From assembly GCA_030611945.1 (NCBI GenBank), contig JAUWOV010000025.1, positions 1 through 20,995 on the forward strand: a stretch of 20,995 bases of DNA, written 5' to 3'. Positions 3,426 to 19,316 of the stretch are shown one piece after another. Made by a program: the position numbers and the translations under genes. Source of the DNA: a bacterium (GTDB lineage: Bacteria; JAHJDO01). The notes under the pieces are model-generated. The model was not told the DNA's origin. It saw nothing but the letters and a program-made list of their open reading frames with translations, and did no database searches. Every line of letters starts with the position of its first letter. Position 1 is the first letter of the stretch.

Positions 3426-3722
3426 ATGGTTAGAGATCGTAATCAAGTTATAAGTTATTTAAAAAAATTTAAAGAAGAAAAAACTTCTAAGTATCATATT
3501 GAACGCATTGGTGTTTTTGGATCAGTTGCAAAAGAAACTGCTACCGAAAAGAGTGATTTAGATATCGTGGTAAAGCTTAGAAAACAAGATCTATTTGATA
3601 TTATTGGAATAAAACAAGATTTAGAAGAAGGTTTAAATGTTTCTGTAGATATAGTTAGTTATAGAGAGCAAATGAATGCCTTTTTGAAAAAAAGAATTGA
3701 TGAGGATGCGATTTATGTATGA
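3426..3722 (+). CDS. mntA: MNT-type nucleotidyltransferase antitoxin (MntA-like)
   Basis: A 98-residue minimal nucleotidyltransferase. The signature GS-x10-DxD is present as G32-S33 ... D44-L-D46, with a third acidic residue at D75 (VDIV), so the catalytic triad looks complete. In the characterised MntA/HepT systems this protein AMPylates a tyrosine of the HEPN toxin and silences it. The start at 3426 is supported by an AAGGAAG ribosome site and the upstream extended -10. The stop overlaps the start of the downstream HEPN gene by 8 bases, the usual arrangement for such pairs. Base composition is AT-richer than the flanking murA and pabB, and the gene runs opposite to both, consistent with acquisition. 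The function is inferred from family and pairing. Confidence 0.9.
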   Translation: MVRDRNQVISYLKKFKEEKTSKYHIERIGVFGSVAKETATEKSDLDIVVKLRKQDLFDIIGIKQDLEEGLNVSVDIVSYREQMNAFLKKRIDEDAIYV

Positions 3723-4086
3723 CAAAAATCTTGCCAAGGAAATATTGAATCAAATATGCAATAGTGCAAAACTTGTTTTAGAAAGATTTGAACCAATCAA
3801 ATCAGTAAATGACTTTACAAATAATATTGTTGGCATGGAAAAACTTGATTCTATTTGCATGCAACTAATTGTTATTGGAGAAGGACTAAAAAATTTAGAT
3901 AAAGTTACCGACAATGCTCTCTTGCCAAAATATCCTCAAGTTGAATGGAAAAAAGCAAAAGGTCTTCGTGATATTATTAGTCATCATTATGTTGATATTA
4001 ATGCTGAAGCTATCTACGATATATGTGAAAATAAAATTAAGACATTAAAAGATACTCTTGAATTGATTCTATCTGATTTAAAATAA
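3715..4086 (+). CDS. hepT: HEPN-domain RNase toxin (HepT-like, DUF86 family)
   Basis: A 123-residue all-helical HEPN protein. The active-site motif RX4HXY is R85-DIIS-H90-H-Y92; Y92 is the position AMPylated by MntA in characterised systems, and R and H form the RNase site. I chose ATG 3715 because GAGGA lies 8 bases upstream and the protein then begins MYDKNLAKEI. In-frame TTG 3697, ATG 3700 and ATG 3706 lie further inside mntA and would only add MMRMRF-like residues. It is translationally coupled to mntA. The toxin motif is intact, so the system may be active. RNase targets in this organism are unknown. Confidence 0.9.
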   Translation: MYDKNLAKEILNQICNSAKLVLERFEPIKSVNDFTNNIVGMEKLDSICMQLIVIGEGLKNLDKVTDNALLPKYPQVEWKKAKGLRDIISHHYVDINAEAIYDICENKIKTLKDTLELILSDLK

Positions 4087-6345: not shown

Positions 6346-7392
6346 TTAACCAAGTTTCTTCTCTAATTTTCTTACTTTTTGAGAAAGTTCTTGAATGGTC
6401 TTGTATATTTCCGGCAGGCGATTTCGATACGCTTTAATCTTTTGCTCTTCTTTGAGCGGTATAGCGGGATAACCGGATACGCACATGTTGGGACTGATGT
6501 TTTTAGTTACTGCCGATTTGGCGGTTATTATTGCATTATCACCAATTTTTATATGTCCTGCAAGTCCGGCTTGTCCTGCAATAGTAACTTTATTCCCCAA
6601 TGTTGTAGATCCTGATATACCAACCTGCGCAACAATCACACAATGCTCGCCAATTTCTACGTTATGCGCAATTTGAACAAGATTATCAATCTTAGTCCCT
6701 TTGCCGATTCGCGTTTTTCCAGCTGTAGCTCTATCAATAGTAACATTAGCTCCAATTTCAACATCGTCTTCAATAGTTACTGTGCCAAGCTGTGGAACCT
6801 TCTTATGACAGGTTCCTTTGATTGGTGTAAAGCCGAATCCATCACTTCCAATTACTGCACCATTGTGGATTATTACATTATTCCCTATTATTATTCTTTC
6901 CCTTATGCTTACATTTGCGTAGATTAATGTATTAGCGCCTATCCTGGTGCCGTTACCTATGAAGACTCCAGGGCAAATAACAGAATTGTCTCCTATTTGT
7001 ACATCATTGCCTAAAACAACATGCGCGTCTATGGTAATATTCTTTCCTAGCTTAGTATTCTTTCCTATAACAGCAGTCTTGTGAATACCAGGCAAAGGCA
7101 TTTCCTTGTTTATCTGTAGATATTCCATTATCTTAACAAACCCAATATACGGATTGTCTGTACGTATTACAGGTCTCCCATTTTTATCCGTCTTTTTATC
7201 AACAATGATTGCTGAGGCTTTGGTAGTTCTCAAGAGAGGATAATAACGAGCATTTGCCAGAAATGTTATATCTCCCTTTTTCGCTTCTTTTATACCTGAA
7301 ACGCCTGTTATAACCATACTGGTATCCCCTTCAACCTTCCCGTCTATAAGCCGGGCAATTTGCGCAAGGGTCATGTTTAATATATTAGTCAT
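6346..7392 (-). CDS. lpxD: UDP-3-O-acylglucosamine N-acyltransferase
   Basis: Third step of lipid A synthesis: adds the N-linked 3-hydroxyacyl chain to UDP-3-O-acylglucosamine. After an N-terminal uridine-binding domain ([34 protein letters not shown]) comes a long left-handed beta-helix of hexapeptide repeats from about residue 100 ([29 protein letters not shown]). Then come IGSDGFGF and the catalytic-His segment [14 protein letters not shown] (H243, equivalent to E. coli H239), with a C-terminal helix ([15 protein letters not shown]). I place the start at ATG 7392, 10 bases after the response-regulator stop, giving 348 residues against about 340 normally. ATG 7374 is an alternative. The frame extends to TTG 7428 inside the upstream gene, but that adds nothing family-like. 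It is the last gene of the kinase-regulator-lpxD run. The rest of the lipid A gene set is not in the window. Confidence 0.95.
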
Positions 7393-7402
7393 AGATTGTA
7401 TT

Positions 7403-8659
7403 CTACACTTTCCCAAAGTCGTCAACAACTTCTTTTTTTATTTCAATATATGTAGTTTTGTTTTCTGGTTGGGATGTTTTTTCTTCATAAGCTGCGATAT
7501 AAAACGGCAAATTTTTTTGTCCAATTATGGAACTTGCTTCAAGGACAACAGCTCTTTCAATGATATTCCTGAGCTCGCGCACGTTCCCCGGCCAACTGTA
7601 ATTTAGAAGCGCATTCATTGCAGCATGAGAAACGCCGTCAATTCTTTTCCCAGTAGATTGAGAAAATTTCCGGATGAAATACTGAACCAAGAATGGGATA
7701 TCTGCCTTTCTTTCAAGCAGTGGCGGCGTAGTTATATAGGAATCGGACAATTTGTTGTAGAAAGCTTTGCCAAATCCAGCTTCCTTTACGGCTACAGGCA
7801 GGTTTCTATTTGTTGCGGCAATGATCCTTACATCAACTGTTACTGTTTTTGTTCCTCCCTCTCTCTCAAATGTCTCTTTTTCAAGCACACTGAGAAGTCT
7901 CTCTTGAACTTGTTCGGACAGAACTCCTGCTTCATCAAGAAAGAGTGTTCCATTATTAGCCAACTCAAGTCTCCCAATCTTTCTCACTTCTGCTTCTGAT
8001 GGAGCTTGCTTTTCATGTCCAAACAGTTCGCTTTCTAAGAGTTTTTCAGAGAGCGAAATGCAATTGGCAACGATAAAAGGACCGTCTTTTCTAGGGCTAC
8101 AGTTATGAATTGTTCTGGCTATAAGTTCTTTTCCCGTGCCGCTTTCTCCATATATTAATACCGCGTCCTTTGTCTTGGAAACTTGTTTTATTAACTTATA
8201 TACCTTCTCCATTTTCTTGGTTTTTCCAATTATTTTATCTGAATGTTTGCGTTCCAGCTCTTCCTTTAAATATTCATTCTCTCTCTCTAAAAATGTAAGT
8301 CTATATGCCTTATCAACCGTGATCTTCATTTCTTCTAAGTCAAATGGCTTAAGAATATAATCATACGCTCCCTTTTTCATTGCTTCTACAGCAGTCTGAA
8401 TTGTACCATATGCTGTCATCATGATTACTGGTACGGTGTTATCTCTTTTCTGTATTTGTTCTAACAGTTCAATGCCGTTCATATTGGGCATCTTCATATC
8501 TGTAATAATGAGATCAAAGTCTGCGGTTTCCATTTTTTTTAGAGCTTCCACTCCATCCTTGGCCTGCTCCGTTTTATAATTCTCGCTTTCAAGCATAATT
8601 TGCAGAATTCTACGTATTTTTAGCTCATCATCTACAATTAACACGCTTGCTTTATTCAT
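7403..8659 (-). CDS. NtrC-like response regulator lacking sigma-54 contact loop, arginine fingers and HTH
   Basis: A 418-residue receiver-AAA+ protein. The receiver domain (1-120) is complete: D10-D11, phospho-acceptor D54 (ITDMKMP), T82 region MMTAYGT and K104 (LKPFD). The AAA+ domain has Walker A GESGTGK (171-177), Walker B LFLDE (240-243 region), sensor I ATNRNL (282-287) and sensor II NVREL (359-363). Three expected parts are missing. The GAFTGA loop that touches sigma-54 reads QAPSEA (218-223, bases 7991-8008). The arginine-finger segment, usually FREDLYYRL, reads FGKAFYNKL (296-304). The protein also stops at [11 protein letters not shown], where the linker to the Fis-type HTH should begin. 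The frame is otherwise clean, with an AAGGGA ribosome site 12 bases after the kinase stop. It probably receives phosphate from the adjacent kinase but is unlikely to activate sigma-54 transcription or bind DNA in the usual way. Its real output is unknown. Confidence 0.92.
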
Positions 8660-8671
8660 ATCTGTCCCTTT

Positions 8672-10408
8672 TTATGCAGAATAAATGGGAATATATACGG
8701 AAAAAATACTTCCCTTACCCTCTTGACTTTCTATTTTAATAGTTCCATTATGATTCTCAATTATTTTATGCGCAATAGCCAATCCTAAACCAGTACCCTC
8801 CGATTTTGTTGTAAAGAAAGGATTAAACACCTTGTCTATTGCGTCCTTGGAAATGCCGCATCCTGTATCTCTAAATGATATCTCAATTAATTTCGTACCA
8901 TTGCTATCATCTCTACTGATGGCAGTTTTTATCTCCAGCCTTCCGCCGTCAGGCATTGCCCCAATAGCATTAAGAATAAGATTAAGAAATACCTGATGCA
9001 TTTGTTCGTTATCGACTCTCGCCTGAGGTAAGTTTTTTTGAAAACTCTTATCTACTTCAATGTGTTTTTTTGATATCTCCATATTTGTCATTTGCAAGGT
9101 TCTATCTATAATAGGCGCAATTTGATTAATTTCAAGATTGGATTTTTGAGGGCGCGCAAAATCAAGAAACGATGTTACTACCTTGTTCAGCCTGTCAGTC
9201 TCTTCAATTATATATTGGGTCAGCTCCTTATTATCGTTCTGCCCATGGAATCTGTCTCCCAGTATTTGTGCAGAGTTTTTAATAATAACCAGAGGATTTC
9301 TTATCTCGTGAGCTACTCCGGCAGCAAGTTCGCCAAGCGCCGCAAGACGGTCTTTTCTGCGAAGCTCTTCCTCCAGATGCCTGAGTCTGCGTAATTGTTG
9401 TATCATCTCATTAAATGCATTTGCCAGATCTTTTATTTCTCCTTTTGCCTTGATCTTTATCTGATGTTCAAGATCTCCTCTTGCTACAGCCCTTATTCCC
9501 AATGTAAACTTGCGCAAAGGATGAGAAATACTTCGCGCTATCAGAACTCCTATTACTGCGGATAATAATACTCCAAGAAATATCAATATTATAAGAAACT
9601 GTCCAACAGCAGTTTGAAAAGCGTATGTTTTTTGTATGCCTACAAACACAACTCCAGAGACCTTTTTGTCCGGGCTCATAAGCGGGGAGCACAATCCATA
9701 AAAATGTAGCTTATTATGATAAATATCCCTTTTATATTCGGAAGTGCCTTGCGCATATATTTTATTGATAAGTTCTTCTATGCTAAGCACTGCTCTCCCT
9801 CTGTCCTTCATACCTTTTGGATATTGAGGCGCTTTATAAAACAGGTCTATGTCAACCCCCATTTTCTTCTCTATATCCTGAAAGATTTCTTTTTTAACAG
9901 TATAGCCTGCCACTATTTTCCCTACTACTTTATCATTTTCCCTGATCTCTAACCCTACACCGGCAATTAATTTTTTTATGTTATCCTTTTCCAAAAGCAC
10001 AAGCATTCTTTTTTTATCCGGTTGTTTCATTACGTTTGGAGAAATACTCCCTGAAGAGAACTTGAGTTCTCCTTTTTCATTTGTAATGAGCAAAGTGTCA
10101 ATCTGCATTTCCTTCTCCAGCATATTCAGAAGCTTTACTATCTGCTCCTCATCCTGCTGTTTAAATGCCTGCATAAACACGAAGTTGCTGAGTATAATTT
10201 CTCCAATTAGAGCAGCTCTGTTTTCCATGTTATCTATTTTGTCTGCAATTAAATCCGCTGCGCTATGGGTTTTTCTTTTTATATCCTTTTCTAATTGCAC
10301 AGATATAACCCTTGTAGCTACAAAGGTTGAAATTAAAATAGGCACAAGCGCCATTAACATAAAGGAAAAGATAAGCTTGTTCTGAATATTTGGTTTAAAA
10401 AAAGACAT
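8672..10408 (-). CDS. Membrane sensor histidine kinase (extracytoplasmic sensor-HAMP-HisKA-HATPase)
   Basis: A 578-residue inner-membrane kinase. TM1 is about residues 12-34 (FSFMLMALVPILISTFVA). Residues 35-268 form an extracytoplasmic sensor region, possibly Cache-like, with the pattern DTLLITNEKGELKFSSG near 104-120. TM2 is about 270-291 (FLIILIFLGVLLSAVIGVLI). A HAMP domain follows (292-345), then HisKA with LAAGVAHEIRNPL (phospho-His H367). The ATPase domain has the N box NLILNAIGAMP (476-486), G1 DTGCGI (514-519), F box NPFFTTK and G2 GTGLGL (538-543). All kinase motifs are intact, so phosphotransfer to the downstream regulator (12 bases away) is expected. No ribosome site precedes ATG 10408; instead a near-consensus promoter ends 6 bases upstream, suggesting a leaderless mRNA. 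The sensed ligand is unknown. The link to lpxD suggests envelope sensing, which is inference. Confidence 0.94.
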   Translation of the reverse strand: MSFFKPNIQNKLIFSFMLMALVPILISTFVATRVISVQLEKDIKRKTHSAADLIADKIDNMENRAALIGEIILSNFVFMQAFKQQDEEQIVKLLNMLEKEMQIDTLLITNEKGELKFSSGSISPNVMKQPDKKRMLVLLEKDNIKKLIAGVGLEIRENDKVVGKIVAGYTVKKEIFQDIEKKMGVDIDLFYKAPQYPKGMKDRGRAVLSIEELINKIYAQGTSEYKRDIYHNKLHFYGLCSPLMSPDKKVSGVVFVGIQKTYAFQTAVGQFLIILIFLGVLLSAVIGVLIARSISHPLRKFTLGIRAVARGDLEHQIKIKAKGEIKDLANAFNEMIQQLRRLRHLEEELRRKDRLAALGELAAGVAHEIRNPLVIIKNSAQILGDRFHGQNDNKELTQYIIEETDRLNKVVTSFLDFARPQKSNLEINQIAPIIDRTLQMTNMEISKKHIEVDKSFQKNLPQARVDNEQMHQVFLNLILNAIGAMPDGGRLEIKTAISRDDSNGTKLIEISFRDTGCGISKDAIDKVFNPFFTTKSEGTGLGLAIAHKIIENHNGTIKIESQEGKGSIFSVYIPIYSA

Positions 10409-12993: not shown

Positions 12994-13257
12994 ATGTTAA
13001 AAGCAAAGGTATATGTAAGTCTAAAGAAGACAGTAGTTGATCCACAGGGTTTGGCTGTGAAGAATGCGTTAAAGTCGCTTAATTATGAGCAGGAAGTAGA
13101 AGAGGTACGAGTTGGCAAACTAATAGATATTAAATTGAATATATCTGATAAAGAAAAAGCAAAGCAAATAATTGACCAGATGTGTAAAAAACTTCTTTCT
13201 AATCCTGTTATTGAAGACTATAGCTTTACTTTAGAAGAAGTAAAGGAATCAAATTAA
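12994..13257 (+). CDS. purS: Phosphoribosylformylglycinamidine synthase subunit PurS
   Basis: An 87-residue small subunit that bridges PurL and PurQ in the three-part FGAM synthase (fourth step of purine synthesis). It has the typical PurS pattern: [19 protein letters not shown], then A-x-KSL and [14 protein letters not shown], and a C-terminal [15 protein letters not shown] strong GGAGG ribosome site fixes the start. Its stop overlaps the purQ start by one base. Confidence 0.97.
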
Positions 13258-13964
13258 TGAGATTTGGAGTTGTTGTATTTCCAGGTTCTAATTGTGATCA
13301 CGACTGCTTTTATGTTCTGAATAATGTGCTAAAACAAGATGTTAAATATATCTGGCATAAAGACACAGAAGTAGGGAATGTAGATTGCATTGTTCTGCCC
13401 GGAGGATTTAGTTACGGAGATTATTTAAGAACAGGCGCAATCGCGCGATTTTCTCCGGTAATGCAGAGCGTTATTGACTTTTCTAAGAAAGGTAGACTTG
13501 TTATTGGTATATGCAACGGGTTTCAAATACTTCTTGAAGCAGGTCTTCTGCCTGGAGCAATGCTGCGCAATAAGAATGTGCACTTTATCTGCAAACATGT
13601 TCATATAAAATTATTGAATAATAACACTCCATTTACAAACCTGTATAAAAAAGACGATGTCTTGAAAATACCTATTGCTCATAATGAAGGGAATTACTAT
13701 ATTGACGAAAAGGGATTAAAAACCCTAAAAGAGAACAATCAGATAGTATTTCAGTACTGCGCCAATCCTAACGGAGCAGTGGATAATATAGCAGGTATTG
13801 TGAACAAAGAAGGAAACGTGCTTGGCATGATGCCTCATCCTGAAAGAAGTTCGGAAACAGAACTCGGCTCACAAGATGGGTTTCTTATATTTAAATCAAT
13901 AGTTGAGTGGGTGGAGAGAAAGGTTGGAATAAGCAGATTAGAGGATAGAGAGGCTCTACTATGA
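13257..13964 (+). CDS. purQ: FGAM synthase glutaminase subunit PurQ
   Basis: Class I glutamine amidotransferase that supplies ammonia to PurL. At 235 residues it has the oxyanion region [20 protein letters not shown] (47-66), nucleophile C86 in GICNGFQIL, and H194 and E196 in MMPHPERS. All catalytic residues are present. The last ~15 residues ([13 protein letters not shown]) extend a little past the usual end and run straight into the overlapping radC start (ATGA). In most genomes purL follows directly; here the partner purL lies 3.1 kb downstream, behind an accessory block. Confidence 0.97.
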
Positions 13965-14647
13965 CAGGCAAGATTGGAAAAACAATTAAACAACTACCAA
14001 AAGTAGAAAGGCCTAGAGAAAAATTTGAGAAAAAAGGTGCTCAGGCACTGCGCAAAAAAGAACTTTTAGCTATTATTCTGCGAACCGGAATAGAGGGTAA
14101 AAATGTCCTGCAAGTCGCCCAAGATATTCTTTCAAAATACGGCGATAAAAAACTTATTGATGTTTCTTATAAAGAACTGCGTAATATGCGCGGAGTTGGT
14201 CCGAGTAAAGCCGCTCAAGTAATTGCCGCTATTGAATTAGGAAAGCGGCTCTACAAAGAAAAAGTTGAAAAAGAAATTTTTATTAACTCTTCTGAAGATG
14301 TTTTAAAAGAAGTAAGTCATATCAGAGAAAACAAGAAAGAGAATTTTATTGTTTTGTATCTTGATGCCAGAAACAAATTAAGCCACAAAGAAACAGTTTC
14401 TATCGGAACGCTCAATGCTAATTTAGCCCATCCTAGAGAAGTTTTTGAACCGGCGATTAGAAACTTGGCAGCCCAAATTATCTTAGTCCACAACCATCCC
14501 TCAGGCGATCCCGAACCATCGGAAGATGATTTAGAGCTCACGAAAAGACTGGTAGAGGCAGGGAAGATTTTAGGGATAGAAGTAATGGATCATATAGTTG
14601 TTACTAAAAATGGGTTTTTTAGTTTTAAGGAGAAGGAGTTAATATAA
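13961..14647 (+). CDS. radC: RadC family JAB/MPN-domain protein
   Basis: A 228-residue protein with an N-terminal helix-hairpin-helix region ([31 protein letters not shown] at 76-86). A C-terminal JAB metalloprotease-like domain follows, whose metal motif is intact: [14 protein letters not shown] (H177, H179, D190). The family is widespread in mobile and defence regions; despite the name, a DNA-repair role is not established and the biochemical activity is unclear. The start overlaps the purQ stop as ATGA, with AGAGAGG 7 bases upstream, so it is translated as part of the pur transcript. It is the first gene of the block that splits purQ from purL. It appears complete and functional. Confidence 0.93.
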
Positions 14648-14651
14648 AATT

Positions 14652-14792
14652 ATGAGCAAAATAAATTACAAGCCACTAGAAGAAAAAATTAAAAGCGAAC
14701 CAGAAGAGAAAAAAGGTTATGTCCGAGATTTTATTACTAATACTTGGGTCAAGGCGACCCCAGAAGAAATTGATAGTTATTTCGAAATTTAA
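14652..14792 (+). pseudogene. N-terminal remnant resembling a type I restriction (HsdR N-terminal type) protein
   Basis: A 46-residue ORF starting MSKINYKPLEEKIKSEPEEK and containing GYVRDFITNTWVKATPEEI. From memory this pattern resembles the N-terminus of type I restriction HsdR-N-type proteins in uncultured bacteria, in which a nuclease domain of several hundred residues follows. Here the frame goes DSYFEI and stops at 14790-14792, exactly where a different remnant begins. I read it as a deletion scar. It could still be translated as a short peptide, since it follows radC by 4 bases. The family call rests on recall. Confidence 0.5.
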
Positions 14793-14863
14793 AAAATGGC
14801 AAAATTACTTCTACAGTTTGGAAAGTAAAACCGCATACTGAAGCAAAGCAAAAAGTAGAATAG
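14792..14863 (+). pseudogene. Fragment resembling the N-terminus of a three-Cys-motif partner protein (TcmP)
   Basis: An open stretch without a start codon reads KNGKITSTVWKVKPHTEAKQ and ends at TAG. The W-K-x-x-PHTEAK pattern is what I recall from the beginning of TcmP proteins, which accompany three-Cys-motif genes in mobile regions. Only 23 codons remain. It directly abuts the preceding fragment. Assigned from memory; short matches can mislead. Confidence 0.4.
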
Positions 14864-14873
14864 ATAATTTTGA

Positions 14874-14930
14874 GAGAAAAAGCTTGAAAAAATCAAAGAT
14901 AAAATTCAAGAAGTTTTGGGAGAGCAATGA
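14874..14930 (+). pseudogene. C-terminal remnant of an unidentified gene
   Basis: After an in-frame stop (14871-14873) the frame reads EKKLEKIKDKIQEVLGEQ and ends in TGA that overlaps the next gene's ATG as ATGA. A charged helical tail with a coupled stop/start suggests the 3' end of a gene that once preceded the cyclase-like gene, most of it deleted. The parent family cannot be told. Confidence 0.35.
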
Positions 14931-15844
14931 AAAACACAATAGTTTATGATCGTTATGTTGTTGCCTTCATTGATGTTCTTGGTCAAAAGGAAGCATTCAA
15001 AGAAAAAGGCAAATACATTGATCGAATACCTGAATATCTAAACAATCATAGTGAAATGAACAAAAAATTGTATAAAGCACATAAGAAAACTGTTGAAGCT
15101 ATTCAAGATATAAGAGGCTTATCAGAAACATTATTTAAAGGAATGGTTTCCCAGACTAACAATCCTAAAGTAAACGTTTCTCCTGAAAAAAAAGGGCAAT
15201 ATAATAAATTAAGACAACTTAAATTATATTCCTATCATTTTTCTGATAGTCTCGTTGCTTATACCCCCGTCTCAATAAATTCTGATTATTTTGCGTCAAA
15301 TATATCCAACTCAATATATGGTTTACTTTTTTATTGCGGAACAATGATGGTGTTATCCTTTATGGGAGAGAAACCTGTCCGAGGAGCGGTTGAAATTGGC
15401 TTAGGAACAAAAATTGCTAAAAATGAAATCTATGGTCCGGCGTTATATAGAGCATATGAAATAGAAAGCAAAATTGCACAATATCCAAGAATTGTCATTG
15501 GAGAATCTATAGTAGAATATCTTAACTCTACAGTAAAAGAAAAATCTTTTGTTCCGAATCAAACGATGGAAGATTCTAATATTTCCAAGGGTATAGCAAA
15601 ACAGTGTCTAAGAATGATGGTTCAAGCCCCGGATGGATGCACGGAAATAGATTATTTGGGTGAAGAATTCATCAGAATATTTAGTAGAAGCCCAGAAATA
15701 AATTATAAAGAAGATTTTCAAAATGCCTTTAAATTTGTTGAAAAAGAATATCTAAGGTTTAGAAAAGAAAGAAATCAATTGTTAGCATCAAGGTATTATA
15801 TGCTTTGCAATTATTTTAATGCTAGAAAAAAATATTTCTCATAA
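14927..15844 (+). CDS. Protein with a class III nucleotide-cyclase-like motif pattern, function unknown
   Basis: A 305-residue soluble protein. The order of conserved segments mirrors a class III cyclase fold. YVVAFIDVLGQK (10-21) has an acidic residue D16 followed by a glycine; YHFSDSLVAY (103-112) carries D107 at the second metal position. Next come VRGAVEIGLGTKI (151-163), then YGPALYRAYEIES (169-181) and YPRIVIG (186-192). The transition-state Asn and Arg of classical cyclases (VN-x-AxR) are replaced (LYRAYE), so it may be an unusual or inactive cyclase. Such proteins occur in anti-phage settings, but no cNMP-dependent effector gene is next to it. The start overlaps the remnant upstream as ATGA, with GGGAGAG as a ribosome site. 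No signal peptide is seen; residues 130-146 are hydrophobic but probably core. Functional reading is tentative. Confidence 0.45.
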   Translation: MKNTIVYDRYVVAFIDVLGQKEAFKEKGKYIDRIPEYLNNHSEMNKKLYKAHKKTVEAIQDIRGLSETLFKGMVSQTNNPKVNVSPEKKGQYNKLRQLKLYSYHFSDSLVAYTPVSINSDYFASNISNSIYGLLFYCGTMMVLSFMGEKPVRGAVEIGLGTKIAKNEIYGPALYRAYEIESKIAQYPRIVIGESIVEYLNSTVKEKSFVPNQTMEDSNISKGIAKQCLRMMVQAPDGCTEIDYLGEEFIRIFSRSPEINYKEDFQNAFKFVEKEYLRFRKERNQLLASRYYMLCNYFNARKKYFS

Positions 15845-15916
15845 CCTCATAAAAGAAAAAGGAAGAAAAAGGTCACAGCGACTTTAAAAAAACGATGTCA
15901 AACCTTAACCACCCGG

Positions 15917-15939
15917 ATTCCCCGATTAAATCGGAGAAT
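15917..15939. repeat. Hairpin repeat 1
   Basis: ATTCCCCGAT and ATCGGAGAAT form a 10-base stem (one G-T type mismatch) around TAA, followed by GACGAACG. This resembles the gattcCC...GGgaatgac type of interspersed repeat common in environmental bacterial genomes (recalled). Confidence 0.5.
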
Positions 15940-15955
15940 GACGAACGAGCGGATT

Positions 15956-15975
15956 GGGCTCAAAATATTGAGCCC
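15956..15975. repeat. Hairpin repeat 2
   Basis: GGGCTCAA and TTGAGCCC form a perfect 8-base stem with a 4-base loop (AATA), followed by CCTACAAT. It lies in the 222-base gap after the cyclase-like gene, which has no coding potential before 16067. Confidence 0.55.
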
Positions 15976-15996
15976 CTACAATGCTTTTACAGACAG

Positions 15997-16016
15997 CCGC
16001 CAGCTAAAGCAGGCGG
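15997..16016. repeat. Hairpin repeat 3
   Basis: CCGCC-A-GCT and AGC-A-GGCGG are inverted around AA, a compact GC-rich dyad in an AT-rich setting. Together with the two previous hairpins it forms a cluster; a further GGGTTCGCAATGACAG stretch follows at 16036-16051 and looks like the end of another repeat unit. Confidence 0.5.
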
Positions 16017-16066
16017 TTGAGAAGAATAGGATTTGGGGTTCGCAATGACAGAAAGGATATTTTAAC

Positions 16067-16171
16067 ATGAAAAATAATTCCCTTAAAAATTATGCGTTTA
16101 TAGATAGCCAAAACCTAAATTTGGGTATTCGTGCTCAGGGATGGGTTCTTGATTCTGGAAGGGGAAAATGA
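16067..16171 (+). pseudogene. N-terminal fragment of a NYN/LabA-like (DUF88) nuclease
   Basis: A 34-codon ORF. YAFIDSQNLNLGIRAQGW is the typical first strand and helix of NYN-domain RNases, including the first catalytic Asp (D13). After VLD the sequence diverges (SGRGK) and stops at TGA 16169-16171, which overlaps the ATG of the ORF6N gene. The remaining ~120-200 residues of a NYN protein are absent. It is probably a remnant truncated when the ORF6N gene arrived or by a deletion. Confidence 0.7.
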
Positions 16172-17070
16172 CGGATATTGTCAAACAAGATATTATCGAG
16201 AAAAAGATATTCTTAATTAGAAACAAGAAAGTGATGCTTGATAGTGATTTGGCATTGCTTTATGAAGTGTCTACTGGGAGATTCAATGAGCAAGTAAAAA
16301 GGAATGTTAAACGATTTCCAGACGATTTTATGGTTCAATTGTCTAAAGAGGAATACCATTCTTTAAGATCGCAATTTGCGACCTTAAAACGCGGACAACA
16401 TCGTAAATATCTTCCTTACGCCTTCACAGAGCAGGGGGTAGCTATGCTTTCCTCTGTGCTAAATAGTGAAAGAGCAATTCAAGTAAATATCGGTATAATG
16501 CGGGTATTCGTCAATATAAGAAAAGTGGTTTCTGCAAATAAAGAAATGCTTAACAGATTGAATCAATTGGAAGATAAGTTTGACAAGGGAATAAAAACGA
16601 TATTTGAAATTATTCGCAAACCATTAGGGTCAAAATTACTATCTCCGAAAGAACCATTTTCAAATAAAAAAACAATTAGGGATATTATTTGTTCCTGCGA
16701 GGAGTATGTTTACTGGATAGATAAATACTTCTCAAAGGCAGGCATGGATTGGCTTTTAGAATTACTTAATACTAAAAAAGTGAAACTTGTTAAAATCCTG
16801 ATAACACCAGAAAAAGCAGATGAAAAGTTTATCTCGTTGTATAACGATTTGAAGGAAGAATTCAAAAACAATGGCATAAAATGTGATTTGCGGTTTATAA
16901 CCGATAAAAATCTGAAAGCAGATATTCATGATAGATGGATTATTTCAAAAGATTTATGCTATAACATTCCTTCAACTGATACAGTTATGAGAGGGCAATA
17001 TAGTGAGGTAAAAAGAACGACAAATTTTCCACCGTTCAACGATTGGTGGAGAAAAAGCAAAGATGTCTAA
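16168..17070 (+). CDS. ORF6N-domain protein with C-terminal PLD-like region
   Basis: A 300-residue protein. Residues 9-95 form an ORF6N (KilA-N/Bro-associated) DNA-binding-type domain, with IRNKKVMLDSDLALLYEV, FNEQVKRNVKRFPDDFM and LPYAFTEQGVAMLSSVL as clear signatures. A likely coiled coil follows (120-150). Residues 168-292 resemble a phospholipase-D-like fold: YVYWIDKYFSKAGMDWL, VKLVKILITP, then ADIHDRWIIS (251-260). The classical HxK is replaced by H-D-R, so PLD catalysis is doubtful. AAGGGG lies just before ATG 16168, which overlaps the stop of the NYN fragment as ATGA. ORF6N proteins are phage- and mobile-associated, often as antirepressor-like factors. It is the last accessory gene before purL, 32 bases away. 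The PLD-like call is by pattern only. Confidence 0.75.
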   Translation: MTDIVKQDIIEKKIFLIRNKKVMLDSDLALLYEVSTGRFNEQVKRNVKRFPDDFMVQLSKEEYHSLRSQFATLKRGQHRKYLPYAFTEQGVAMLSSVLNSERAIQVNIGIMRVFVNIRKVVSANKEMLNRLNQLEDKFDKGIKTIFEIIRKPLGSKLLSPKEPFSNKKTIRDIICSCEEYVYWIDKYFSKAGMDWLLELLNTKKVKLVKILITPEKADEKFISLYNDLKEEFKNNGIKCDLRFITDKNLKADIHDRWIISKDLCYNIPSTDTVMRGQYSEVKRTTNFPPFNDWWRKSKDV

Positions 17071-17102
17071 GTAAAATAGAAGATTCAAAAAGAAGAAATA
17101 AT

Positions 17103-19316
17103 ATGATCACTCCTGAAATGTACAGATCTCTTGGATTAACTGACAAAGAATATCAGAAGATATTGAGTCTTTTAAAGAGGGAGCCTACGGTTACCGAGCT
17201 TGCAATGTTTGCTGCGGAATGGTCAGAGCACTGCGGGTATGTAAGTTCCCGAAATCTGCTTAAAATCCTGCCAAAAACAGGGAAATATAAAACTCTGATA
17301 GGTGAGGATTCAGGAGGAATCATTATTGATGATTTAGCCATTATTTTTAAGATGGAAAGTCATAATCATCCTTCACAGGTTGAGCCAAAGCAAGGGGCTG
17401 CTACAGGAGTAGGTGGAATTATAAGGGATATATTTACTGCAGGCGCAAGACCTATTGCAAGTTTAAATTCCCTTAGGTTCGGGCCTCTTTCAGAAGCGTA
17501 TAACAGGTATCTCCTTCAGGGAGTAGTGGACGGCATACAGTTTTACGGGAACTGTTTGGGAGTGCCTACAATTGGAGGAGAAATATATTTTGATGAGAGT
17601 TATAACGGGAATTGTCTTGTTAATGCAATGAGTATTGGAATAGCAAAAAAGGATGAGCTGGCAAGAGCATGCGCTTTTGGAGAAAGCAACTCCATTATGT
17701 ATGTTGGGGCCAGTACAGGAAGGGATGGTATTGGAGGATGCAGTGTTCTTGCATCTCATGAATTCAAAGAGGGAGATGCAAAGAGACCAACTGTTCAAAT
17801 TGGAGATCCCTTTATGGAAAAATGTCTGATTGAGGCAACATTGGAGATTCTTTCTACAGGCTATGTTTTAGGAATTAAGGACATGGGCGCAGCAGGTCTT
17901 ACATGCGCAGTCAGCGAAATGGCATCAGATGGGAAATCAGGAATTGATATGGAACTGCGCAATATTCCGCTCAGAGAAAAAAATATGGAGCCATGGGAGA
18001 TAATGGTGTCTGAATCGCAGGAAAGAATGCTTGTGTGTGTTAAAGCAGGAAAAGAAAAGGAAATTAAAGATATATTCTCTAAGTGGGATTTGAACGCCGT
18101 AACCATTGGCAAGGTTACAAAGGACAAGATGGTTCGTATTCGGGATAATGGCAAAATATTAGTTGAGGTGAAAGCGGATATATTAACAAAAGCCCCTATC
18201 TATGATATGCCATATAAAGAACCGGAGCATATGAAGGAATTGAACAGCCTGAATCTAAATACTATCCAAGAACAAGAAGATTACAATATTGTTTTGCTCA
18301 ATCTTCTTAAAAGCCCATCCATTGCGAGCAAGGAATGGGTGTATGAACAGTATGACCACATGGTCCAGCTAAATACTATTGTCTTACCCGGTTCAGATGC
18401 CGCTGTAATTAGATTAAAGGGAACTAACAAAGCTATTGCGGCTACAACTGACTGCAATAGCCGTTACTGTTACTTAAATCCTTATAGAGGAGCTCAAATT
18501 GCAGTCGCAGAAGCAGCAAGAAACCTAGTTTGTTCAGGAGCTGAACCGGCATCTGTTACTGATTGTCTTAATTTTGGAAATCCTAAAAAACCGGATAGAT
18601 ATTGGCAGTTTAAAAATTGCGTGCAAGGTATTACGGATACCTGTAAATTTTTTGATGTTTCAGTAGCGAGCGGGAATGTATCCTTTTATAATGAGAATCC
18701 AAAAGGAGCGATTTATCCTACTCCTACAATCGGAATGATAGGTATTATAGAGGATATAAATAGAGTCTGTACTCAATATTTTAAAAACAAAGATGACTTA
18801 ATTATTCTTCTTGGAATTTCGCTGGAAGAATTAGGAGGAAGTGAATACCTGAAACTAGTTCACGGACTGGTTAGGGGGGATGCTCCTGAACTGGATTTAA
18901 AAAAGGAAAGGGCTGTTCAGCTTGCAACGCTTGAAGCGATCAGGAATGAGCTTGTCAATTCTGCTCATGATCTCTCAGAGGGAGGGCTTGCAGTTGGTCT
19001 GGCAGAATGCTGTATGTCAAATAAAGAGAGGATGATAGGAGCTGTTATAAATAATCTGAATTTTGATATTAGAACAGATGCTCTATTGTTCGGAGAATCT
19101 CAGTCAAGGATAATACTCAGCTGCGAAGAGAAATCTCTCAATCAGATCAAAAAAATTGCAAAGAGGCACAAAGCAAATTTACAGGTAATTGGCAGTACAG
19201 GTGGAAACAGGTTTGTTATTTCGGATAATGGGAACAAATTAATAGACGTATCATTAGAGGAATTACAAGACGTATGGTCTAATGCATTGGAGAGAGAGAT
19301 TGATAGCAATAGTTGA
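17103..19316 (+). CDS. purL: Phosphoribosylformylglycinamidine synthase subunit PurL (small type)
   Basis: ATP-dependent FGAM synthase subunit working with PurS and PurQ. 737 residues from ATG 17103; the frame is open back to 17043, but the 20 extra codons overlap the ORF6N gene and do not look like PurL, which starts ITPEMYRSLGLTDKEY. Motifs: WSEHC (40-44), FKMESHNHPS with the catalytic His region (82-91), QGAATGVGGIIRDIF, DMGAAGLTCAVSEMAS, SESQERM, CLNFGNP, NVSFYNEN, PTPTIGMIG and AHDLSEGGLAVG. No frameshift is seen. The usual CSYKxS is CGYVSS here. The ribosome site is poor (AAGAAGAAATAAT), fitting a start that lost its native upstream neighbour. The 3' end overlaps hisH. Confidence 0.97.
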   Translation: MITPEMYRSLGLTDKEYQKILSLLKREPTVTELAMFAAEWSEHCGYVSSRNLLKILPKTGKYKTLIGEDSGGIIIDDLAIIFKMESHNHPSQVEPKQGAATGVGGIIRDIFTAGARPIASLNSLRFGPLSEAYNRYLLQGVVDGIQFYGNCLGVPTIGGEIYFDESYNGNCLVNAMSIGIAKKDELARACAFGESNSIMYVGASTGRDGIGGCSVLASHEFKEGDAKRPTVQIGDPFMEKCLIEATLEILSTGYVLGIKDMGAAGLTCAVSEMASDGKSGIDMELRNIPLREKNMEPWEIMVSESQERMLVCVKAGKEKEIKDIFSKWDLNAVTIGKVTKDKMVRIRDNGKILVEVKADILTKAPIYDMPYKEPEHMKELNSLNLNTIQEQEDYNIVLLNLLKSPSIASKEWVYEQYDHMVQLNTIVLPGSDAAVIRLKGTNKAIAATTDCNSRYCYLNPYRGAQIAVAEAARNLVCSGAEPASVTDCLNFGNPKKPDRYWQFKNCVQGITDTCKFFDVSVASGNVSFYNENPKGAIYPTPTIGMIGIIEDINRVCTQYFKNKDDLIILLGISLEELGGSEYLKLVHGLVRGDAPELDLKKERAVQLATLEAIRNELVNSAHDLSEGGLAVGLAECCMSNKERMIGAVINNLNFDIRTDALLFGESQSRIILSCEEKSLNQIKKIAKRHKANLQVIGSTGGNRFVISDNGNKLIDVSLEELQDVWSNALEREIDSNS

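Follow-up and report, generated by a model that had tools for sequence, protein, structure and literature searches.

When an NtrC-type response regulator no longer carries the elements by which such proteins act on transcription, the question arises of what it is still kept for. This question is raised by a locus in the window, i.e. the whole stretch of 20,995 nucleotides that was analysed, in which such a response regulator (RR) is encoded between a sensor histidine kinase (HK) and lpxD. The features of the locus are:

8672–10408, minus strand: sensor HK, intact and cognate to the RR, with HAMP, HisKA and HATPase_c domains and a weak dCache-like N-terminal sensor (domain search, genus alignment)
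7403–8659, minus strand: RR of 418 amino acids, with receiver, degenerate σ54-type AAA+ domain and lid, without helix-turn-helix (HTH) (open reading frame, Pfam)
8306–8659, minus strand: receiver domain, residues 1–118, D54 kept (Pfam, genus alignment, dN/dS)
8126–8149, minus strand: Walker A, GESGTGKE, residues 171–178, present in every genus sequence covering the site
7991–8008, minus strand: L1 loop, QAPSEA, residues 218–223, where GAFTGA is expected (homologue alignment)
7931–7948, minus strand: Walker B, TLFLDE, residues 238–243 (alignment); D242 is N in genomes G004 and G002 and in one G001 sequence
7748–7774, minus strand: FGKAFYNKL, residues 296–304, where the arginine-finger segment FREDLYYRL is expected (alignment)
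7406–7504, minus strand: C-terminal tail of 33 amino acids, its last part a linker helix (alignment; helix 404–417 in the AlphaFold model)
7393–7402, minus strand: RR-lpxD junction of 10 nt; the same place in most canonical cassettes holds a predicted enhancer palindrome, σ54 promoter and hairpin RNA
6346–7392, minus strand: lpxD, third gene of a conserved cassette (domain search, synteny)

Translation and alignment bear out what the initial annotation had reported of this reading frame, namely its extent and strand, the two replaced motifs and a stop ahead of the HTH. The L1 loop, with its GAFTGA motif, is the contact to σ54. Both arginine-finger positions are changed as well (R297 to G, the relatives having S, and R303 to K), and the stop codon (7403–7405) sits where the linker helix ends, directly ahead of the position of the Fis-type HTH; this helix aligns with SYQEAKKEVLQSFEKRFL of canonical relatives, in which the Fis-type HTH comes next. 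The Pfam scan recognizes Response_reg (6–114), Sigma54_activat (143–307) and AAA_lid_14 (316–398) and finds no HTH, of the Fis type or otherwise, and matches of the AtoC/NtrC/ZraR type span the receiver and AAA+ domains, but with scores far under the curated cut-offs. D54, Walker A, Walker B and NVREL are all kept in the window copy. The AlphaFold (AF2) model has a mean pLDDT of 80, with low confidence for the L1 loop (residues 217–224), and matches NtrC1 in its fold (1NY5, Foldseek E 1e-39, with 43% identity across 380 columns). As for invariant positions, 20/22 are kept in the receiver and 44/64 in the AAA+ domain, versus 53–60/64 in distant canonical paralogues; in more than 75 homologues of other phyla, the loop is GAFTGA-like and the arginine-finger segment of FRxDLY/FYR form, and the HTH tail is present in nearly every case.

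The state of the RR can be followed in five species, each with one genome (the window genome G000 and G001–G004), which form the only genus of their phylum in the genome set and together provide six RR sequences. The gene is present in 5/5 genomes, and so is the order HK-RR-lpxD, once the contig breaks of G001 and G003 are taken into account, with lpxD at a similarly short distance behind the RR. The complete proteins of G004 and G002 are 91 and 89% identical to that of the window, the remaining sequences being partial: one in G003 and two discordant copies in G001. These two copies (L122 and L123, on contigs C154 and C64 of a single metagenome-assembled genome, MAG) differ with a dS of 0.38 over their overlap and represent either two gene copies or mixed strains. 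The arginine-finger segment reads FSKxLYNKL throughout the genus (FGKAFYNKL in the window) and never FREDLYYRL, and tail and stop position are identical in all sequences that reach the end of the RR. Neither chance nor a frameshift explains the missing HTH, given this shared end and an lpxD start 10 nt downstream. The L1 loop itself varies (QAPSEA, QAFSEV, QAFSEA or QASPEA), with an 11-residue insertion in one G001 copy and a deletion in G003. Further changes affect the ATPase: Walker B reads LFLNEL (D242N) in 3/6 sequences, the G001 copy with this change also has its sensor-II R replaced by G and is 12 residues shorter ahead of sensor I, and in-frame indels are found in both AAA+ pore loops. 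The reading frames are nevertheless open throughout the five species, with dS reaching 0.7.

Loss of σ54 from the genus does not account for this state, since rpoN is found in 5/5 genomes and, as several canonical NtrC-type activators also coexist with the window-type RR, the genus did not lose σ54 itself. A split gene with its HTH encoded elsewhere was likewise rejected, because the HTH_8 search gave only two short free-standing reading frames, both in G000, and no stand-alone HTH_8 gene conserved in the genus. These two Fis-type HTH frames lie at G000:C88:15779-15904 and G000:C70:3546-3671 and are absent from the congeners.

Selection acts unevenly along the protein. In the genus, dN/dS is 0.035 for the receiver (range 0.02–0.05), which is its most constrained part, 0.171 for the AAA+ domain and 0.206 for the lid, so that AAA+, lid and tail are still under purifying selection (about 0.2). 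Canonical paralogues of the same genomes display the reverse pattern, with 0.07–0.35 for the receiver and 0.04–0.09 for the AAA+ domain, the latter thus being two to four times less constrained in the window-type RR; compared with four control orthologue pairs, the inversion is significant (z = 3.8, p = 1.5e-4, on independent pairs). The catalytic domains of the kinase are kept, at a dN/dS of 0.13–0.17.

Set against these data, most of the initial annotation stands at the level of the genus. A changed loop and a short C-terminus beside lpxD are conserved under purifying selection, even though the loop sequence varies, and the loss of transcription activation is common to the genus; neither normal orthologues in close relatives nor a sequencing error, either of which had been named as speaking against the proposal, turned up when looked for in the genus. 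The proposal that selection has kept phosphorylation agrees with the constraint on the receiver and the intact kinase. An intact ATP site, as it had been described, is a property of the window copy and not of the genus, given the Walker-B and sensor-II changes, and the related claim that nucleotide binding and hydrolysis are selectively kept is not supported: half of the sequences have a changed Walker B, there are indels in both pore loops, and the AAA+ domain is less constrained than that of canonical paralogues.

Outside the genus, the order HK-RR-lpxD with a canonical RR occurs in 11 genomes, the cassettes having been traced via the kinase sensor region, except for two that a genome scan added and one met when searching around G210. 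The aligned RRs of these cassettes have GAFTGA or GTFTGA, FREDLYYR or FREDLYFR, and the HTH tail. In a tree of 48 RRs, the three full-length genus proteins and 12 cassette-type RRs (those of the 11 genomes plus L215, which has no lpxD behind its RR) form one clade with support of 97/89, whereas the canonical paralogues from the genus's own genomes fall outside it; the stem leading to the window group is long (0.67). On this evidence, normal orthologues of the window RR are found only in other lineages. Identity between the window genus and the cassette RRs is 50% for both domains, versus 68% among the cassette RRs themselves for the AAA+ domain and 53% for the receiver, so that the older divergence agrees with dN/dS in that the AAA+ domain has diverged and the receiver has not. 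The conserved unit consists of kinase, regulator and lpxD; the genes on either side of it are not the same in the window as in the other cassettes. Elsewhere in the window, a nucleotidyltransferase and a HepT-like gene (3426–4086) make up an MNT/HepT-type toxin-antitoxin module, and radC, an orphan frame of 305 amino acids and an ORF6N-domain gene lie between purS-purQ and purL (12994–19316).

What the ancestral regulator may have controlled is suggested by the gap between RR and lpxD, which measures about 62–377 nt in canonical cassettes versus 10 nt in the window. Seven gaps (L193, L194, L058, L048, L197, L200 and L214) contain, in fixed order, an enhancer-like palindrome, a σ54 site and a hairpin, all of them predictions, and the same predicted elements follow in the same order behind the RR of L215, where lpxD does not follow. 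In all eight, the palindrome (18 bp, TGTGGTA-N4-TACCACA) lies close 3' of the RR stop and may serve as enhancer for the cassette RR. The predicted σ54 site is near-perfect in L200 and L214 (TGGCACGGAAATTGCT) and in L197 (TGGCCCGAAAATTGCT), and in L197, L200, L214, L058, L194 and L215 it is the top sense-strand site of the whole locus. σ54 site and hairpin together span:

L200, 4690–4886, minus strand
L214, 3860–4006, minus strand
L197, 7372–7490, minus strand
L058, 2831–2970
L193, 5795–5930
L194, 6130–6265
L048, 2135–2265
L215, 3012–3150

The hairpin (GGCAGAG...CUCUGCC, with the invariant loop UUCCUUCUU) scores 57–63 bits against its own model in 8 gaps, other matches in the 385 genomes searched reaching at most 28 bits; it folds better than shuffled sequences in most copies, its core stem is invariant and two outer pairs show compensatory change. 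A search of Rfam gave no match, and the element is possibly a new small RNA or an lpxD leader; in L215, a strong intrinsic terminator stands 3' of the hairpin, and a free small RNA is therefore predicted there. The arrangement is not universal, as three cassettes of family f25 have no hairpin and no σ54 site was found in their gaps, and the L187 gap has a weak σ54 site and no hairpin. Most likely, the canonical cassette RR of other lineages switches on a σ54 promoter beside lpxD.

In the window's genus, the RR codons past the linker helix, the palindrome, the promoter and the hairpin are all missing. The hairpin model detected no copy in any of the five genomes; the best match in G000 (21 bits, E 0.1, versus 57–63 bits for real copies) lacks the conserved loop and has no σ54-like site in front, and retention of the RNA elsewhere in the genus was rejected. 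No convincing σ54 site was found upstream of the window's kinase gene. Since HTH, enhancer, promoter and RNA adjoin one another in canonical cassettes, a single deletion could remove them all, and probably did so. The link to lpxD that had been suggested for the window RR is thus real, but ancestral: the σ54 site that precedes lpxD in most canonical relatives is gone here, and the adjacency of lpxD is explained by the ancestral circuit. LpxD is a candidate partner of the RR by gene order alone.

Taken together, the RR is probably a decommissioned σ54 activator of a conserved kinase-RR-lpxD cassette, retained as a receiver protein that is gated by phosphorylation and does not act on transcription. 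Most likely, the RR of other lineages bound the palindrome behind its stop codon as an enhancer and activated a σ54 promoter from which the hairpin RNA was made and lpxD read. In this genus, HTH, enhancer, promoter and RNA element were lost, probably by one deletion, lpxD being left 10 nt behind the RR, and the AAA+ domain, once released from σ54 work, lost the GAFTGA loop and the two arginine fingers, several species having lost the Walker-B aspartate too. Kinase and receiver are the part still under strong selection. Orthology, synteny, the losses and the pattern of selection can be read from the sequences; we infer that the kinase still phosphorylates the RR and that the phosphorylated RR acts by protein contact, as had plausibly been proposed, with the AAA+ domain as a non-motor scaffold. 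The AAA+ domain may do more than that, however, its dN/dS (0.17) being far below 1; this residual function is read from dN/dS in five species, including the MAG with two discordant RR copies. The fuller account, in which an NtrC-type activator became such a protein by excision of its entire output arm (HTH, enhancer, σ54 promoter and a hairpin RNA outside Rfam), with kinase and receiver under strong selection and an intact circuit elsewhere driving both hairpin RNA and lpxD, is put forward more tentatively, at somewhat less than even chances. If so, the circuit can be seen before and after: several lineages have the complete kinase-activator-promoter-RNA-lpxD module, and one genus has kept the input without the output. 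Whether an RR can remain useful once all its transcription features are gone thereby becomes a testable question. A likely new σ54-driven hairpin RNA of uncultured bacteria, next to a lipid A gene, is also indicated.

The main rival to a protein-contact role, in our view unlikely but still to be taken seriously, is that the RR acts on nothing downstream and persists as cognate phosphate acceptor, preventing cross-phosphorylation of canonical activators or setting the kinase/phosphatase balance. This would fit a receiver more constrained than in paralogues, a conserved kinase and the several canonical RRs of the same genomes, but a pure sink does not need the AAA+ domain, lid and tail that remain under purifying selection. 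Next comes slow decay, in which a jobless RR is on its way out and its frame stays open partly as leader cistron of a tightly coupled lpxD; the pore-loop indels, the Walker-B and sensor-II changes and the 10 nt junction are what one would expect, yet the low dN/dS of receiver and AAA+ and five open frames at such dS make it improbable, as a leader cistron does not require its amino acids. We regard as equally improbable that the RR still regulates transcription from solution, either at σ70 promoters or as a dead, dominant-negative subunit in rings of canonical activators. The fold and Walker A are kept, GAFTGA-less regulators of σ70 promoters are known (PMC10274813) and an HTH-less regulator retains ATPase activity (PMC7482065); however, the σ70 case studied in detail binds DNA, and the known HTH-less case keeps its σ54 ATPase function, while the window RR lacks HTH and GAFTGA alike. 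A sequencing or assembly error truncating a normal NtrC gene, for which no support was found, can practically be dismissed, as relatives refute it with the same tail and stop in four other assemblies and lpxD similarly close.

Compared with NtrC-type bacterial enhancer binding proteins (AtoC/NtrC1; PDB 1NY5, 4L4U), the window RR shares the receiver-AAA+-lid order, the fold, Walker A and sensor I, and by its D54 receiver and its descent it belongs to the family, but it has no GAFTGA, arginine fingers or Fis HTH, and some species of its genus have lost Walker B. Loss of the σ54-contact loop, which in G003 is likewise deleted, is shared with the GAFTGA-less Caulobacter NtrC, Rhodobacter capsulatus NtrC and Vibrio cholerae VspR, which are reported to regulate σ70 promoters (PMC10274813). 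Caulobacter NtrC does so by DNA binding (PMC10274813), and the window RR, having no HTH, differs from this type. Chlamydia CtcC consists of receiver and AAA+ without a DNA-binding domain and keeps its σ54 ATPase function (PMC7482065). The window RR has no DNA-binding domain either, but additionally lacks the loop and the arginine fingers, and thus the functional σ54 AAA+ motifs of HTH-less regulators. Helicobacter pylori FlgR is also built of receiver and AAA+ without a DNA-binding domain. Another HTH-less NtrC-type RR, L015 (G019:C39), with GAFTGA and FREDLYYRL intact, lies between a kinase gene and an rpoN-like frame, an arrangement that looks CtcC/FlgR-like. No report of a regulator lacking both GAFTGA and HTH was found in the open-access literature searched. 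In QseE/QseF (GlrK/GlrR)-glmY and LuxO-Qrr, an NtrC-type RR fires a σ54 promoter for a small RNA. It is these circuits, the first of which is linked to envelope control (PMC6075780), that the canonical cassettes, and not the window RR, resemble in plan, with the difference that the cassette RNA is another one, is linked to lpxD and has been deleted in the window's genus.
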